A DNA stretch of 64,000 nt from Phenylobacterium sp. Its GTDB lineage: Bacteria; Pseudomonadota; Alphaproteobacteria; Caulobacterales; Caulobacteraceae. Below the pieces are notes generated by a model. That model was not told the origin of the DNA and made no database searches. It worked only from the letters and a program-made list of their open reading frames with translations. The stretch lies in NCBI RefSeq assembly GCF_030679875.1, contig NZ_JAUXSP010000015.1, forward strand, positions 248,001-312,000. The letters are read 5' to 3'. Numbering within the stretch: the stretch's first letter is position 1; each line of letters starts with the position of its first letter. Made by a program: the position numbers and the translations under genes. This document shows positions 19,961 through 61,882 of this stretch, one piece after another.

Positions 19961-20872
19961 ATGCGCGCCATGTCCGCGGTCGAGCCCCTTGACGTCGCCG
20001 AGCCTGCCACCCTTGCGCCGGCTGGGTTCCTGGTGCGCCGGGCCGCGAGCCTGGGCGCGCCGCCGCCGACCCCGGTGATCTTCGCCTCGCCCCACTCCGG
20101 CCGGCTCTATCCGGACGACATGATGTCGGCGACCACCCTGGACGCCCAGGCGATCCGCCGTTCGGAGGACGCCTTTGTCGATCAGCTGGTCGAGGATGCG
20201 CCTCAGGCCGGGGCGGCCCTGATCATCGCCAACTATGCGCGCGCCTATATAGATGTGAACCGGGACGCCTTTGAGCTCGACCCGGGGATGTTCGTCGATG
20301 AGTTGCCGGACTTCGCCCGCAGCCGCACCGCCCGGGTGGCGGCGGGCCTGGGGGCCATCGCCAAGGTGGTCTCCGAGGGCCAGGAGATCTACGCCCGCAA
20401 GCTGACCTTCGCCGAAGCCCAGGGCCGGATCGACGGGGCGCACCGGCCCTATCACGCCGCCTTGTCCCAGCTGATCGCCGAGGCCCAGGCCGCTCACGGG
20501 ATCGCCATCCTTGTGGACTGGCACTCCATGCCCTCCGCCGCCGCCAGGGCGGCCGGGGCCGGCGGTTGCGACATGGTGCTGGGGGACCGGTTCGGCGCAG
20601 CCTGCGCCAACAGCCTGACGCGGCTGGCCGAGGTGGAGCTGGAGGCCCGCGGATACCGGGTGGTGCGAAACACCCCCTATGCCGGCGGCTACACCACCGA
20701 ACACTACGGCCGTCCCGCCCGCCGGGTCCACGCCCTGCAGATCGAGCTGAACCGGGCGCTCTATCTCGACGAGGAGACCCTGTCGCCGACAGCCGACTTC
20801 GCCCGACTGAAGGCCGACATCGCCACCCTGACCGCAGCCCTGACCGCGCAGGACTGGTCTAGGCGGCTCTGA
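19961..20872 (+). CDS. N-formylglutamate amidohydrolase family protein
   Basis: 303 aa from ATG 19961, or 300 aa from ATG 19970; neither has a clear ribosome site. The family signature is VIFASPHSGRLYP near residue 45, with the zinc-binding His, then RSEDAFVDQL, ANYARAYIDVNRD and VDWHSMPSAA with a second His. ARRVHALQIELNRALYLDE closes the domain. Members hydrolyse N-formyl-L-glutamate from histidine breakdown, though many homologs outside hut operons have unknown substrates; no hut genes are seen here. It shares the promoter region with cpdR. Confidence 0.9.
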   Translation: MRAMSAVEPLDVAEPATLAPAGFLVRRAASLGAPPPTPVIFASPHSGRLYPDDMMSATTLDAQAIRRSEDAFVDQLVEDAPQAGAALIIANYARAYIDVNRDAFELDPGMFVDELPDFARSRTARVAAGLGAIAKVVSEGQEIYARKLTFAEAQGRIDGAHRPYHAALSQLIAEAQAAHGIAILVDWHSMPSAAARAAGAGGCDMVLGDRFGAACANSLTRLAEVELEARGYRVVRNTPYAGGYTTEHYGRPARRVHALQIELNRALYLDEETLSPTADFARLKADIATLTAALTAQDWSRRL

Positions 20873-20891
20873 ACAGGCCCCTCCTGTGGCC

Positions 20892-20921
20892 AAAAAAAAG
20901 GCCGCGCTCGAAAGCGCGGCC
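20892..20921 (-). terminator. Strong intrinsic terminator of sRNA candidate 1
   Basis: GGCCGCGCT and AGCGCGGCC form a perfect 9-bp stem with a 4-nt loop, followed in the leftward direction by eight T. There is no T-run on the rightward side, so it serves the leftward transcript, not the gene ending at 20872. Confidence 0.88.
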
Positions 20922-20976
20922 AGTTCATTAGGGAGGAAACGCCCAGGAAGGGCAGAGACGTCCGGAGACGCCTCAC
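20892..20976 (-). ncRNA. Candidate MmgR/suhB-like small RNA, copy 1
   Basis: A leftward promoter (-35 TTGTTC at 21006-21011, 17-nt spacer, -10 TAGATT at 20983-20988) would start an RNA of about 85 nt near 20976. The RNA has a small hairpin GCCC-TTCCT-GGGC, the unpaired GTTTCCTCCCTA and a perfect 9-bp terminator stem with eight U. The 16-mer GGGCGTTTCCTCCCTA (20929-20944, read leftward) is identical at the second locus, 58255-58270. C-rich anti-Shine-Dalgarno stretches like this occur in alphaproteobacterial sRNAs that repress translation. No ORF fits. The family name is from memory of the UUUCCUCCCU motif. Confidence 0.65.
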
Positions 20977-20982
20977 GGTCAA

Positions 20983-21011
20983 AATCTACGGTGCGGCGCA
21001 CAAAAGAACAA
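20983..21011 (-). promoter_or_regulatory. Candidate promoter of sRNA candidate 1
   Basis: Read leftward: TTGTTC, exactly 17 nt, TAGATT. It is a housekeeping-sigma-like element placed to give a transcript of about 85 nt ending at the strong terminator. Judged by eye only. Confidence 0.45.
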
Positions 21012-21215
21012 GGGATAAAATGTCGCAAGTGCGAACGGATGGTCTGGAAGGCGGCTTTCTATAGGCTTTACAACGCGATGATGCCCCGCGATCACGCAAG
21101 ATTTCGTGCTGCAGCGCACAAGTCGCCTACCCCTTCATGGGGGACTGTCACCAGTTCGCGCTAGCCGTGGGGCGTCTTGTCCCCTAAAAGCCGCCGCTTC
21201 CGGAAAAGGTTTCCC

Positions 21216-23048
<1,833 letters not shown>

Positions 23049-57583: not shown

Positions 57584-58165
57584 TCAGAGCGCCGTCAGTC
57601 GCGCATCCAACTGCGCTCGGACCGCCGGCCATTCCTCGGCCAGAATGGAGAAGACCACCGTGTCGCGGATGCGGCCGGTCCAGACGACGCGGTGCTGGCG
57701 CAGGATGCCCTCCTGCACAGCCCCCAGTTTGAGGACCGCAGCGCGGGAGCGGTGGTTGATGGCGTCGACGTTCAGTTGCACCCGCCGGGCGCCGGCCTCG
57801 AAAGCATGGCCCAGCATCAGGCGCTTGGTGGCTGGGTTCACCGCCCCGCCCCGGTGGTCGGGGTGGTAGTAGGTGCCGCCGATCTCAACGGACGCATTGG
57901 CGGGATCGGGACCGATATAGCTGGTCATGCCGATGCACCGCCCCTCGAGCAGAACCGCATGGGGAATCCAGCTGCCCTCGGCGGCCTGAGCCATCATCCG
58001 CGCCCAGCCGGCGTCGAAATGCTCTGGTTCCATGGAGTGGGGATAGAGGTCGCGCCAGACCTGCAGGTCGGCGGCGCAGGCGGCCTGCAATTGGGCGCGA
58101 TGGCGTTCGCCCATCGGCTCAAGCCGCACATGCCGATTGTGCGAATTCTGGCCTTCCAGCTGCAT
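57584..58165 (-). CDS. GNAT-family N-acetyltransferase
   Basis: 193 aa from ATG 58165 with GGGGGTGAA upstream. HVRLEPMGERHRAQLQAAC, then VEIGGTYYHPDHRGGAVNPATKRL with the acetyl-CoA loop, and VQLNVDAINHRSRAAVLKLG. This is the RimL-like branch with the HRGGAxNPxxK variant of the usual Q/RxxGxG/A site. The substrate is unknown. It is divergent from sRNA candidate 2. Confidence 0.9.
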   Translation of the reverse strand: MQLEGQNSHNRHVRLEPMGERHRAQLQAACAADLQVWRDLYPHSMEPEHFDAGWARMMAQAAEGSWIPHAVLLEGRCIGMTSYIGPDPANASVEIGGTYYHPDHRGGAVNPATKRLMLGHAFEAGARRVQLNVDAINHRSRAAVLKLGAVQEGILRQHRVVWTGRIRDTVVFSILAEEWPAVRAQLDARLTAL

Positions 58166-58240
58166 TTCACCCCCTGTGACGCAACGGCACGAAGAATCTT
58201 TCACCCGCCCTCTTGCCTTTGGCCAGGAGGGTATTATCTC

Positions 58241-58312
58241 AGCCTGGCCCTTTTGGGCGTTTCCTCCCTATAACTTTTGAGTCGCGCCCTTCATGGACGC
58301 GGCTCTTTTTTT
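58241..58312 (+). ncRNA. Candidate MmgR/suhB-like small RNA, copy 2
   Basis: A TATTAT element (58232-58237) would start an RNA near 58241-58244. About 70 nt follow: hairpin GCCC-TTTT-GGGC, then GTTTCCTCCCTATAACTTTT unpaired, then a terminator stem with seven U. The 16-mer at 58255-58270 is identical to that of copy 1 at 20929-20944, and both have the same order of elements. No ORF fits. Size and motif match alphaproteobacterial MmgR-type sRNAs as I remember them. The -35 element is unclear (TTGCCT at 58213 is only 13 nt from the -10). Confidence 0.68.
58279..58312 (+). terminator. Intrinsic terminator of sRNA candidate 2
   Basis: GAGTCGCG and CGCGGCTC pair (one G-U) around an 11-nt loop and run into seven T. 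The stop codon of the convergent TauE/SafE gene is 3 nt further on. Confidence 0.87.
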
Positions 58313-58315
58313 GCC

Positions 58316-59071
58316 TCAGGCGCGACCGAGCAGCATCAAGCCCTGGATCAGGAAGCCGGCCCCCAAGGCCGTGAAGATCCATCGGCGCCATCGGCGGAAA
58401 TGATCTTCAGAGATGATGTCCAGGAACCGGCGGCCAACCGCCGCGCCGAGCACGGCGGCCAGGACCGCTCCCGCCACCAGGGCGAGACCCAGGCCCTCCC
58501 CCTCAGCGCCGACCGAAATCAGCGCCCCGCCGTAAAAGACGAGCTTGGCCAGGTGGGCGAAGACCTGGAAGGCGGCCTTGGTGCCGATGACCTCGTGACG
58601 GTTGAGGGAGCTGCGCACCAGAAACAGTTCGCTCAGAGGCCCGGAAACCCCCACCGTCAGGGCCATGAGGGTGGCCAGGAAGCCGCCCGCCAGGGCGTGG
58701 GTCGGACGGGCGGCGTCCAGGGGAATGAGCCTCGGCGGAAGCCAGACCAGGACCGGCAAGAGGCCCATGCCGATGAAGATCGCCGCCTTGGAGGGCTGGA
58801 AGGCCATGAACGAGAGCAGTCCCATGCCAGCAATGGCGCCGAGGCCAAACCACCCCACCGTGCGATAGCGCACATGCCGGGCGTTGAAGCCTGCCCTGGC
58901 AAGGTTCGAGGCCAGCTGCGCAGCGCCATGCAGGGCGAGCGCCGCACCCACCGGCAGGATCAGGGTCAGGACCGCCATCAACAGCGAGCCGCCGGCCATG
59001 CCCAACAGCCCCGATATGGCCGAGGCGGCGAAGACCGCAGCCAGGACCAGCCCGACGCTGAGCCCGCTCAC
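58316..59071 (-). CDS. TauE/SafE-family membrane permease, copy 1
   Basis: 251 aa starting at GTG 59071, which overlaps the stop of the upstream paralog (GTGA, 4 nt). About eight TM helices. Family landmarks are SGLLGMAGGSLLMAVL in the first repeat, HGAAQLASNLARA, and VGVSGPLSELFLVRSSL with TKAAFQVFAHLAKL in the second. TauE/SafE proteins are proposed exporters of sulfite, sulfoacetate or other anions; the substrate here is unknown. Translationally coupled to copy 2. Confidence 0.88.
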   Translation of the reverse strand: MSGLSVGLVLAAVFAASAISGLLGMAGGSLLMAVLTLILPVGAALALHGAAQLASNLARAGFNARHVRYRTVGWFGLGAIAGMGLLSFMAFQPSKAAIFIGMGLLPVLVWLPPRLIPLDAARPTHALAGGFLATLMALTVGVSGPLSELFLVRSSLNRHEVIGTKAAFQVFAHLAKLVFYGGALISVGAEGEGLGLALVAGAVLAAVLGAAVGRRFLDIISEDHFRRWRRWIFTALGAGFLIQGLMLLGRA

Positions 59072-59826
59072 GAACCCGCCATCAGAAGCTGGGCGGCCTG
59101 GATCAGGTAGAGGACGCCGACGGCGGTGACGATCCAGCGGGTCCAGCGCTTGAAGTTCACGTCGCTCATCCGCTCCAGGATCAGGCCGCCGCACCAGGTG
59201 CCGGCCATGGAGAGCGGAATGGCCAGGGCGAACAGCCAGAGCGGCGGCATGTCGGCATCCCGCGCCCCGACCAGCAGCGGCGCCCCATAGACGATGATCT
59301 TGGCCAGGTGGGCGAAGACCTGGGTGGCGGCCTTGGTGGCGACGATGGCGTGGCGGGTGAGTTCGGTGCGGACGAAGAAGATGTCCAACAGGGGGCCGGC
59401 GACGCCTGCCATCAAGTTCAGGCCGGTGACGAGGAAGCCCGAGGCGAAGGCCTGGTGCGGCCGGGCGGCGTCCAGCTTCAGCCAGCCCGCCGGTAGCCAG
59501 GTGAGCCAGGGCACCAGGCCCAGCATCAGGAACAGGAACGGCTTGGACGGGGTGAAGGCCGCCAGCGACACCAGCACGCCGGCGATCAGGGAGGCCAGGG
59601 CATACCAGCCGACAATGTCCCAGCGGACGTGACGCCTATGCAGCAGGGCCCGCCAGCCATTGGCGACCAGCTGCAGAATGCCGTGGGTGACGAAGGCCGC
59701 TGAGACCGGCAGGACGAGCGCCAGGGCGCCCATCAGCACCAGGCCGCCGGCCATGCCGAAGACGCCAGACAGGGTGGCCGTCAAAAAGGCGGCGGCCAGG
59801 ATGAAGATCGCAGTAGGTAGGGTCAC
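59068..59826 (-). CDS. TauE/SafE-family membrane permease, copy 2
   Basis: 252 aa from GTG 59826 with GGAGA 9 nt upstream; this start places the first TM helix (TAIFILAAAFLTATLSG) at the N-terminus. SGVFGMAGGLVLMGAL, HGILQLVANGWRALLHRRHV and AGVAGPLLDIFFVRTEL with TKAATQVFAHLAKI parallel copy 1 throughout, so the two are tandem duplicates. They may work as a heterodimer or have different anions. A GNAT gene lies 105 nt upstream on the same strand. Confidence 0.88.
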   Translation of the reverse strand: MTLPTAIFILAAAFLTATLSGVFGMAGGLVLMGALALVLPVSAAFVTHGILQLVANGWRALLHRRHVRWDIVGWYALASLIAGVLVSLAAFTPSKPFLFLMLGLVPWLTWLPAGWLKLDAARPHQAFASGFLVTGLNLMAGVAGPLLDIFFVRTELTRHAIVATKAATQVFAHLAKIIVYGAPLLVGARDADMPPLWLFALAIPLSMAGTWCGGLILERMSDVNFKRWTRWIVTAVGVLYLIQAAQLLMAGS

Positions 59827-59931
59827 GGGCAGTCTCCAGAAAGGCGGCCTGTCCTCCAGGGCGGTCACAGGCCGCCTCGGATTGCAGAACCGCAGCGCGT
59901 CGCGCGCGGGACGGAGCAGGCGCTGCAAACC

Positions 59932-60562: not shown

Positions 60563-61882
60563 CTAGTTCCGGAACACGGCCGCCGTGGACGGGTCCTGGG
60601 GCATTTCGCGGTACTGGCGCAGCTCGTTGCGGCCCACCACCATGTGGTGGACCTCATCGGGGCCGTCGGCCAGGCGCAGGGTGCGGGTGGAGGTATACAT
60701 CCGCGCCAGGGGGGTCTTCTGCGAGACGCCGGTGGCGCCGTACATCTGGATGGCCTGGTCGATGATCTGGCAGACCCGCTCGGGCACCATGGCCTTGACC
60801 ATGTGGATCCAGATGCGGGCCTCCTGGCGATCGAGGACGTCCATGGCCTTGGCGGCCTTGAGCACCATCAGGCGCATGGCCTCGATCTCGATGCGGGCGC
60901 GGCTGACGATCTCGACATTGCCGCCCAGCTGGATGATCGGCTTGCCGAAGGCTTCCCGGGTCAGGCCGCGGGTGACCATCAGGTCGAGCGCCTTCTCGGC
61001 CTGGCCAATGGCGCGCATGCAGTGGTGAATCCGGCCGGGACCCAGGCGCAGCTGGCTGATCTCAAAGCCGCGGCCTTCGCCCAGCAGCATGTTCGAGGCC
61101 GGCACCCGGACATTGTCGAACACGATGTGCATATGACCGTGCGGCGCGTCGGGATCGCCGAACACGTTCATCGGGCCGACCACCTTGACCCCAGGGGTGT
61201 CCATGGGAACCAGGATCTGGGACTGGCGCAGATGGGGCGGACCTTCGGGGCTGGTCTGCACCATGGTGATCATCACCTTGCAGCGCGGGTCGCCGGCGCC
61301 GGAGATGTAGTGCTTCTCGCCATTGAGGACGTACTCGTCCCCCACCAGGGTGGCGCGCATGCGGATGTTCTTGGCGTCGGAGGAGGCCATGTCCGGCTCG
61401 GTCATGGCGAAGGCCGAGCGGATCTTGCCTTCCAGCAACGGCTTCAGCCACATTTCCTTCTGCTCGGGCGTGCCGACGCGCTCGAGAACTTCCATGTTGC
61501 CGGTGTCGGGCGCGGCGCAGTTCATCGTCTCAGAGGCCATCGGGTTCTTGCCGAGCTCGACGGCGATATAGGCGTAGTCCAGGTTCGACAGACCCTCGCC
61601 GGTCTCGGCGTCAGGCAGGAAGAAGTTCCACAGGCCCTCGGCCTTGGCCTTGTCCTTGGCGGCTTCAAGGACTTCCAGCTGGCCTGGCGCATAGGACCAG
61701 ATGTCGGTCTTGCCCTCACCAAGCCGGTGGAATTCCACGCTCATCGGCTGGACCACCTCGGCGATGAACGTCTTCACATGGTTCAAGAGCGGCACCGCCT
61801 TTTCGGAGATGCGGAGGTCGTTAAGCGCGTCCAGCGGGTTCAGCGCGAAGCTGGATTGAGCTTTTTCAGCGGCGATATTCAT
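60563..61882 (-). CDS. Acyl-CoA dehydrogenase (ACAD10/11-like subgroup)
   Basis: 439 aa from ATG 61882, with GGGAGGA 7 nt upstream. AMTEPDMASSDAKNI is the flavin-contact strand, LNGEKHYISGAGDPRCKVMI follows, and [20 protein letters not shown] and REAFGKPI mark the helical domain. At the usual catalytic Glu position (YEGT) it reads LADGPDEVH, so Asp is the probable base. This and the [12 protein letters not shown] segment are shared with the divergent paralog. Likely a specialised acyl-CoA dehydrogenase using ETF. A PsrA-like palindrome lies in the shared promoter region. Confidence 0.92.
   Translation of the reverse strand: MNIAAEKAQSSFALNPLDALNDLRISEKAVPLLNHVKTFIAEVVQPMSVEFHRLGEGKTDIWSYAPGQLEVLEAAKDKAKAEGLWNFFLPDAETGEGLSNLDYAYIAVELGKNPMASETMNCAAPDTGNMEVLERVGTPEQKEMWLKPLLEGKIRSAFAMTEPDMASSDAKNIRMRATLVGDEYVLNGEKHYISGAGDPRCKVMITMVQTSPEGPPHLRQSQILVPMDTPGVKVVGPMNVFGDPDAPHGHMHIVFDNVRVPASNMLLGEGRGFEISQLRLGPGRIHHCMRAIGQAEKALDLMVTRGLTREAFGKPIIQLGGNVEIVSRARIEIEAMRLMVLKAAKAMDVLDRQEARIWIHMVKAMVPERVCQIIDQAIQMYGATGVSQKTPLARMYTSTRTLRLADGPDEVHHMVVGRNELRQYREMPQDPSTAAVFRN

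Follow-up and report, generated by a model that had tools for sequence, protein, structure and literature searches.

Within the 64,000 nucleotides of a Phenylobacterium sp. genome analysed here (the window), two short elements on opposite strands and 37 kb apart carry the same 16-nt core. This raises the question of whether the two are genes of one small RNA (sRNA) family and, if so, what sets them apart. We refer to the element on the forward strand as copy 2 and to its counterpart on the reverse strand as copy 1.

An Rfam scan of the window gave three matches over threshold, one to tRNA and two to RF00519 (suhB or ‘Makes More Granules Regulator’, mmgR; the alphaR8 sRNAs), whose gathering cut-off is 41 bits. 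Both RF00519 matches are full length, that of copy 2 covering positions 1–77 of the 77 in the covariance model, and no others exceed the cut-off anywhere in the genome, which comprises 3.5 Mb on 32 contigs. The initial annotation had proposed a paralogous sRNA family with at least two loci, which this result bears out, and its candidate span of 58241–58312 fits the gene at 58240–58318 almost exactly. In a permissive scan of 58180–58380 no other Rfam family came close to its own cut-off around copy 2. A third genome locus (G000:C17:90957-91036, 32.1 bits, sub-threshold) was rejected because it lacks the core and corresponds to the rpsD 3′ end with its terminator. The family itself is already known under the names RF00519, alphaR8, MmgR and SisA–D, its studied members being MmgR of Sinorhizobium meliloti and SisA–D of Caulobacter crescentus (PMC12559287). 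What is added here is that copy 2 is a paralogue at a place shared within the genus, and that its upstream region, of a kind peculiar to its class, is without the PhaR operator core found before its sibling. The features of the two loci are:

58240..58318, + strand: copy 2, alphaR8 (suhB/mmgR/Sis-type) sRNA gene (RF00519, 56.8 bits)
58212..58237, + strand: promoter-like element CTTGC...TATTAT of copy 2 (sequence pattern, descriptive)
58247..58258, + strand: short hairpin GCCC-TTTT-GGGC, reaching into the core from its 5′ side (folding; individual class-2 folds)
58260..58269, + strand: 10-mer TTTCCTCCCT, pairing (anti-Shine-Dalgarno) seed of alphaR8 (sequence; published 10-mer UUUCCUCCCU, PMC12559287)
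58279..58312, + strand: Rho-independent terminator, stem 58279–58305 and U-run 58306–58312 (sequence and folding)
57584..58204, − strand: gene for a GNAT acetyltransferase, running divergently from copy 2, start codon tentative (PF13302, PF00583)
58316..59194, − strand: gene of the TauE/SafE family, running convergently with copy 2, start codon tentative (PF01925)
20885..20960, − strand: copy 1, alphaR8 sRNA gene, FGase-linked like sisA of Caulobacter (RF00519, 62.4 bits; linkage, PMC12559287)
20930..20939, − strand: 10-mer seed TTTCCTCCCT of copy 1 (sequence match)
20992..21000, no strand: TGCGGCGCA palindrome of the PhaR/AniA operator core TGCRNYGCA type, upstream of copy 1 (published consensus)
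19970..20872, + strand: N-formylglutamate amidohydrolase (FGase) gene adjoining copy 1, start codon tentative (PF05013, 251 bits)
21216..23048, + strand: typA/bipA, divergent from copy 1 (GTP_EFTU and BipA_C)

The shared 16-mer, GGGCGTTTCCTCCCTA, was confirmed at 58255–58270(+) and 20929–20944(−). These are its only matches in the window even when up to two mismatches are allowed (shuffles average 0.08), and under a base-composition model an exact 16-mer is expected 4.5e-5 times in the window and 0.0025 times in the genome, in agreement with the earlier view that a chance match is unlikely. Nor is the core abundant at unrelated sites, since AGGGAGGAAACG, the complement of its central part, occurs exactly at these two loci only in the genome. 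The annotation had also described the same hairpin before both cores; the GCCC/GGGC stem is indeed common to the two, its 3′ arm forming the first four bases of the 16-mer, whereas the loops differ (TTTT in copy 2, TTCCT in copy 1). Its independent terminators held up, both copies folding with a separate terminator hairpin followed by a U-run (fold z scores of −3.3 and −4.1 for copies 2 and 1, respectively). Copy 1 has an additional 5′ stem-loop (GAGGCGTC...GACGTCTC) that is absent from copy 2, assuming that its transcript starts as far upstream as the sequence folded. The 10-mer is predicted to be open in both RNAs, with mean unpaired probabilities of 0.965 (copy 2) and 0.961 (copy 1). A weak hairpin followed by the unpaired 10-mer UUUCCUCCCU defines the alphaR8 sRNAs (PMC12559287); in its predicted fold copy 2 displays this arrangement, and by sequence and folding it has the 3′ Rho-independent terminator of the family.

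Linkage to an FGase gene is reported for most single alphaR8 copies and for sisA, with the other three Caulobacter paralogues lying elsewhere (PMC12559287). Copy 1 has this linkage and copy 2, located between GNAT and TauE, does not; FGase linkage is not a defining feature of the paralogues. The TauE/SafE gene adjoining copy 2 is part of a tandem pair on the − strand (58316–59928).

To place the two loci we fetched the over-threshold loci of a set of relatives and sorted them by their neighbours with tblastn. RF00519 exceeded its threshold in 55/60 genomes of this set and in 194/199 Caulobacteraceae genomes (own genome included in both), with up to nine matches per genome in the family set, sub-threshold matches included. 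Within the genus, class 1 (FGase and/or TypA in the locus) was found in 33/36 genomes, own included, and class 2 (GNAT and/or TauE in the locus; the class of copy 2) in 19/36. The class-2 figure comprises 17 loci plus L067 and L089, which were restored after seven core matches without TTTTT had been skipped (L017, L049 second site, L065, L067, L074, L082 and L089); L017, the second site of L049, L065, L074 and L082 were left out of the promoter counts. Seed conservation within the classes is partly built in, the loci having been chosen by the exact 9-mer TTTCCTCCC; the tenth seed base differs in one class-2 sequence (L076). Two loci over the RF00519 threshold, L083 and L093, lack the exact TTTCCTCCC core and were left unclassed; they are possible diverged members.

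Both copies lie on one contig in nine genomes: in seven they are 37–71 kb apart on opposite strands, and in two they are separated by more than 660 kb. The class distribution and this recurring spacing and orientation relative to copy 1 suggest an early presence of copy 2 in the genus, as opposed to a recent duplication. Phenylobacterium records L129, L131 and L136 carry loci with GNAT and/or TauE neighbours, and in L136 the copy-2 locus shows 88–99% identity to the GNAT, TauE and SDR proteins. The GNAT/TauE setting was absent from the loci of other genera that were read (L252–L298 and titled records, mostly one best match per genome). In a collection of 84,980 species, the 15-mer and T-run pattern GGGCGTTTCCTCCCT-N20-50-TTTTTT occurred in at least 119 stretches; among the 80 matches listed, 77 have titles that we read as Alphaproteobacteria, two are titled ‘Proteobacteria bacterium’ and one Mesoflavibacter. 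The last, a metagenome-assembled genome (L163), has a typical alphaR8-like gene and 65% G+C over 8 kb, which we take to be ill-suited to Mesoflavibacter, so its title may be wrong. At another locus (L004; G028:C3:1829692-1829927) two alphaR8 genes stand in tandem, with starts 159 bp apart and unlike upstream sequences.

The upstream regions separate the two classes. The core of the PhaR/AniA operator is TGCRNYGCA, or TGCRNYGCASMA in Bradyrhizobium (PMC6201568), and in S. meliloti the operator WNWD2NYGCRNYGCRNH2WNW sits in the mmgR promoter, which PhaR binds as judged by EMSA (PMC12542648). We first spotted a TGC-N3-GCA motif by eye and then counted it with the published consensus. Between −110 and −15 before the core, TGCRNYGCA was present in 33/33 class-1, 0/19 class-2 (none upstream of copy 2 itself) and 7/12 other (class-3) genus loci, where letter shuffling predicts 0.2, 0.12 and 0.08, respectively. 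The looser YGCRNYGCR gave 33 class-1, 2/19 class-2 and 7 class-3 loci, with a class-2 expectation of 0.6. Because the core marks every class-1 promoter and no class-2 promoter among those counted, the siblings probably share their seed but not a carbon-storage switch; and because its promoter differs from that of copy 1, copy 2 is probably switched on under conditions unlike those of its sibling. This contrast was not found in print in the open-licence PMC literature searched, which also yielded no paper joining Phenylobacterium, sRNA and mmgR; a term search of PMC12559287 returned zero mentions of PhaR.

The same counts bear on the proposal that copies 1 and 2 are regulated together and redundant, and have been retained for their combined dosage, as reported for the OmrA/OmrB and Qrr sRNAs. 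Their identical pairing regions imply that the target sets should overlap, as redundancy would require. Class-specific upstream regions are not expected of co-regulated copies, however, and SisA–D of Caulobacter have distinct expression patterns (PMC12559287), which together make this explanation unlikely.

The class-2 promoters have an element of their own, consisting of CTTG and a CATA- or ATTAT-type box that ends 22–25 nt before the core in 18/19 loci; this count is descriptive, as the pattern was fitted to the sequences after they had been seen by eye. RNAalifold on the class-2 alignment returned four pairs, all of them outside the terminator and without covariation, a result that we think is due to misaligned terminators. 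The sequences were for this reason folded one by one, and 21/21 formed the 3′ hairpin despite their varying sequence. Copy 2 could in principle be a decaying duplicate that still scores with the model and has no function of its own, a view favoured by its lower score relative to copy 1 and by the 17/36 genus genomes that have no class-2 locus in the set, many of which are drafts. Against decay, the 3′ hairpin is kept in all class-2 sequences although they have diverged, the promoter-like element recurs at the same place and the neighbours of copy 2 are common to the genus, with the caveat that seed conservation does not count fully in loci picked by their seed. We consider decay very improbable. 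Still harder to credit is the idea that the element mainly serves as the terminator of the convergent TauE gene and matches the core incidentally: the hairpin does lie just beyond the point where the TauE frame ends (58316), but the U-run is on its + strand side, with AAAAGTTA following the hairpin on the − strand, and both the exact 16-mer and the full-length RF00519 match are left unexplained.

We are highly confident in the preferred reading as a whole, that 58240–58318 is the gene for a trans-acting alphaR8 sRNA of ∼70–80 nt, a paralogue of the copy at 20885–20960, which would act through Hfq and its seed and differ from its sibling at the promoter.

In the own genome, the pattern TTGTGCNNNGCA had 13 matches (two being one overlapping palindrome) versus four for the reversed pattern. 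Two sites lie between copy 1 and typA, and others precede a Phasin_2 gene (88.5 bits) as well as a gene with a marginal PHB_depo_C match in its first 250 residues (27.5 bits, cut-off 27). The Phasin_2 and PHB_depo_C sites are as expected for a putative PhaR operator; no such link to PHB genes was seen for the remaining sites. A second TGCRNYGCA palindrome, TGCAGCGCA at 21110–21118, is situated 118 nt from the first, in the stretch that separates copy 1 from typA, and typA may therefore share the regulator of copy 1. A profile search for the PhaR domain PF07879 found no match in the own genome. As the domain is present in 56/60 genus genomes searched (own among the 60), the PhaR step in this strain is uncertain. 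The 3-kb ends of all 32 contigs matched neither the phaR neighbourhood of the sister genome G005 at the protein level (frames of ≥120 aa), nor the phaR-neighbourhood DNA of G005 and G001, nor Caulobacter hisG, and an explanation by contig ends is therefore not supported. Upstream of other Caulobacteraceae siblings (L256, L264, L265, L279, L280, L285, L293, L294 and L297) we saw by eye GTTAGCGCTAWCA-like or TGACAACGTTGTCA palindromes. These presumably resemble LacI operators, as if each sibling were tied to a different sugar regulator.

The likely action of the copy-2 RNA follows from its studied relatives. In SisA the 10-mer UUUCCUCCCU base-pairs close to the start codon of mRNAs and thereby represses them; for the mRNA of a TonB-dependent receptor, where the site precedes the start codon, and likewise for the sponge CrfA, pairing was demonstrated with compensatory mutations, and 8/10 tested RIL-seq targets were repressed (PMC12559287). 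The targets reported for SisA are TonB-dependent receptors along with further genes of transport and metabolism (PMC12559287). Because the core is identical to that of SisA, copy 2 is best inferred to act in the same way. Its RNA would be bound by Hfq, and its UUUCCUCCCU would pair with Shine-Dalgarno regions to lower translation of a broad set of mRNAs. Judging by the promoters, copy 1 would be under PHB-sensing PhaR control, as mmgR is in S. meliloti, and copy 2, without the operator, would supply the same seed under other conditions. The annotation had suggested targets with GGGAGGA ribosome-binding sites, which agrees with the SisA mechanism as reported (PMC12559287). GGGAGGA-N3-12-ATG has 66 sites in the genome versus nine for the reversed pattern, an excess that is not proof of targets, since GGGAGGA is simply a good Shine-Dalgarno sequence. 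Of 64 distinct sites, 45 begin a reading frame that either spans at least 80 aa or continues past the edge of the sequence read. Seven of these, chosen by look and treated as candidate sites with no claim of enrichment, were scanned and encode three TonB-dependent receptor plug domains, one enoyl-CoA hydratase, one AMP-binding enzyme and two acyl-CoA dehydrogenases, one of the latter within the window (60563–61882). Exact AGGGAGGAAA occurs opposite both sRNAs and at two other places in the genome.

In Caulobacter the siblings are countered by CrfA, which was footprinted with all four of SisA–D (PMC12559287). Guided by the published description of CrfA, we searched two Caulobacter genomes for GGGAGGAAA accompanied by a hairpin and a terminator; in locus L333 this led to GGCGTTTC-GGGGAG-GAAACGCC, downstream of hisG. 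Rfam identifies this hairpin locus as CrfA (RF01527, 147 bits) and also names RF01527 for L356 and L363 of other genera, which with L333 are all the hairpin loci so checked. The second stem-loop of CrfA is complementary to the alphaR8 core, over 14 nt in L333, and hisG is in the locus in L333, L354, L356, L357 and L358. The hairpin pattern CGTTTC-N0-6-GGAGGAAACG occurs in 358/390 Caulobacteraceae genomes, mostly once, with none for the reversed control among the matches listed; not all matches are necessarily CrfA, L353 being unlike it. Counted from the matches listed, 95/100 genus genomes other than the own have the pattern. The own assembly has none, and a search of the genome with the 12-mer complement, allowing one mismatch, gave four sites, none sponge-like by eye.

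These observations allow a broader, more tentative proposal. Across the genus, alphaR8 may be split at the promoter, copy 1 keeping a PHB-sensing PhaR operator and copy 2 providing a PhaR-independent source of the anti-Shine-Dalgarno seed, such that the seed dose would depend only in part on the carbon-storage state. The circuit of this strain may even run without CrfA and a recognisable PhaR, with transcription of the siblings as the main control. We rate this extension as possible, at somewhat below even chances.

Among known systems, MmgR of S. meliloti shares the Rfam model and the core with both copies. Copy 1 further resembles mmgR in having an upstream palindrome of the PhaR/AniA type that controls mmgR (PMC12542648, PMC8401924); copy 2, unlike mmgR, has no such palindrome. 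S. meliloti is reported to have one copy (PMC12559287), whereas the window genome has two. CrfA (RF01527) is an antagonist of alphaR8 RNAs and not a member of the family. The closest parallel is SisA–D of C. crescentus, which share the family and the 10-mer and occupy several loci per genome, one adjoining the FGase gene as copy 1 does, with promoters that are unlike one another, as here (PMC12559287). The present case differs in the position of copy 2 between GNAT and TauE, a setting seen in the genus of the window only, among the loci read, and in that CrfA was not found in this assembly. Copy 2 is ordinary in kind, a further case in which sibling sRNAs combine a common seed with separate switches. 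The contrast in the PhaR core across the genus, together with the sponge hairpin missing from this assembly, makes the question of why several siblings are kept testable by comparing strains. For the four siblings of one species, PMC12559287 describes no motif common to the upstream regions; comparing one orthologous class across species, in contrast, reveals class-specific motifs.
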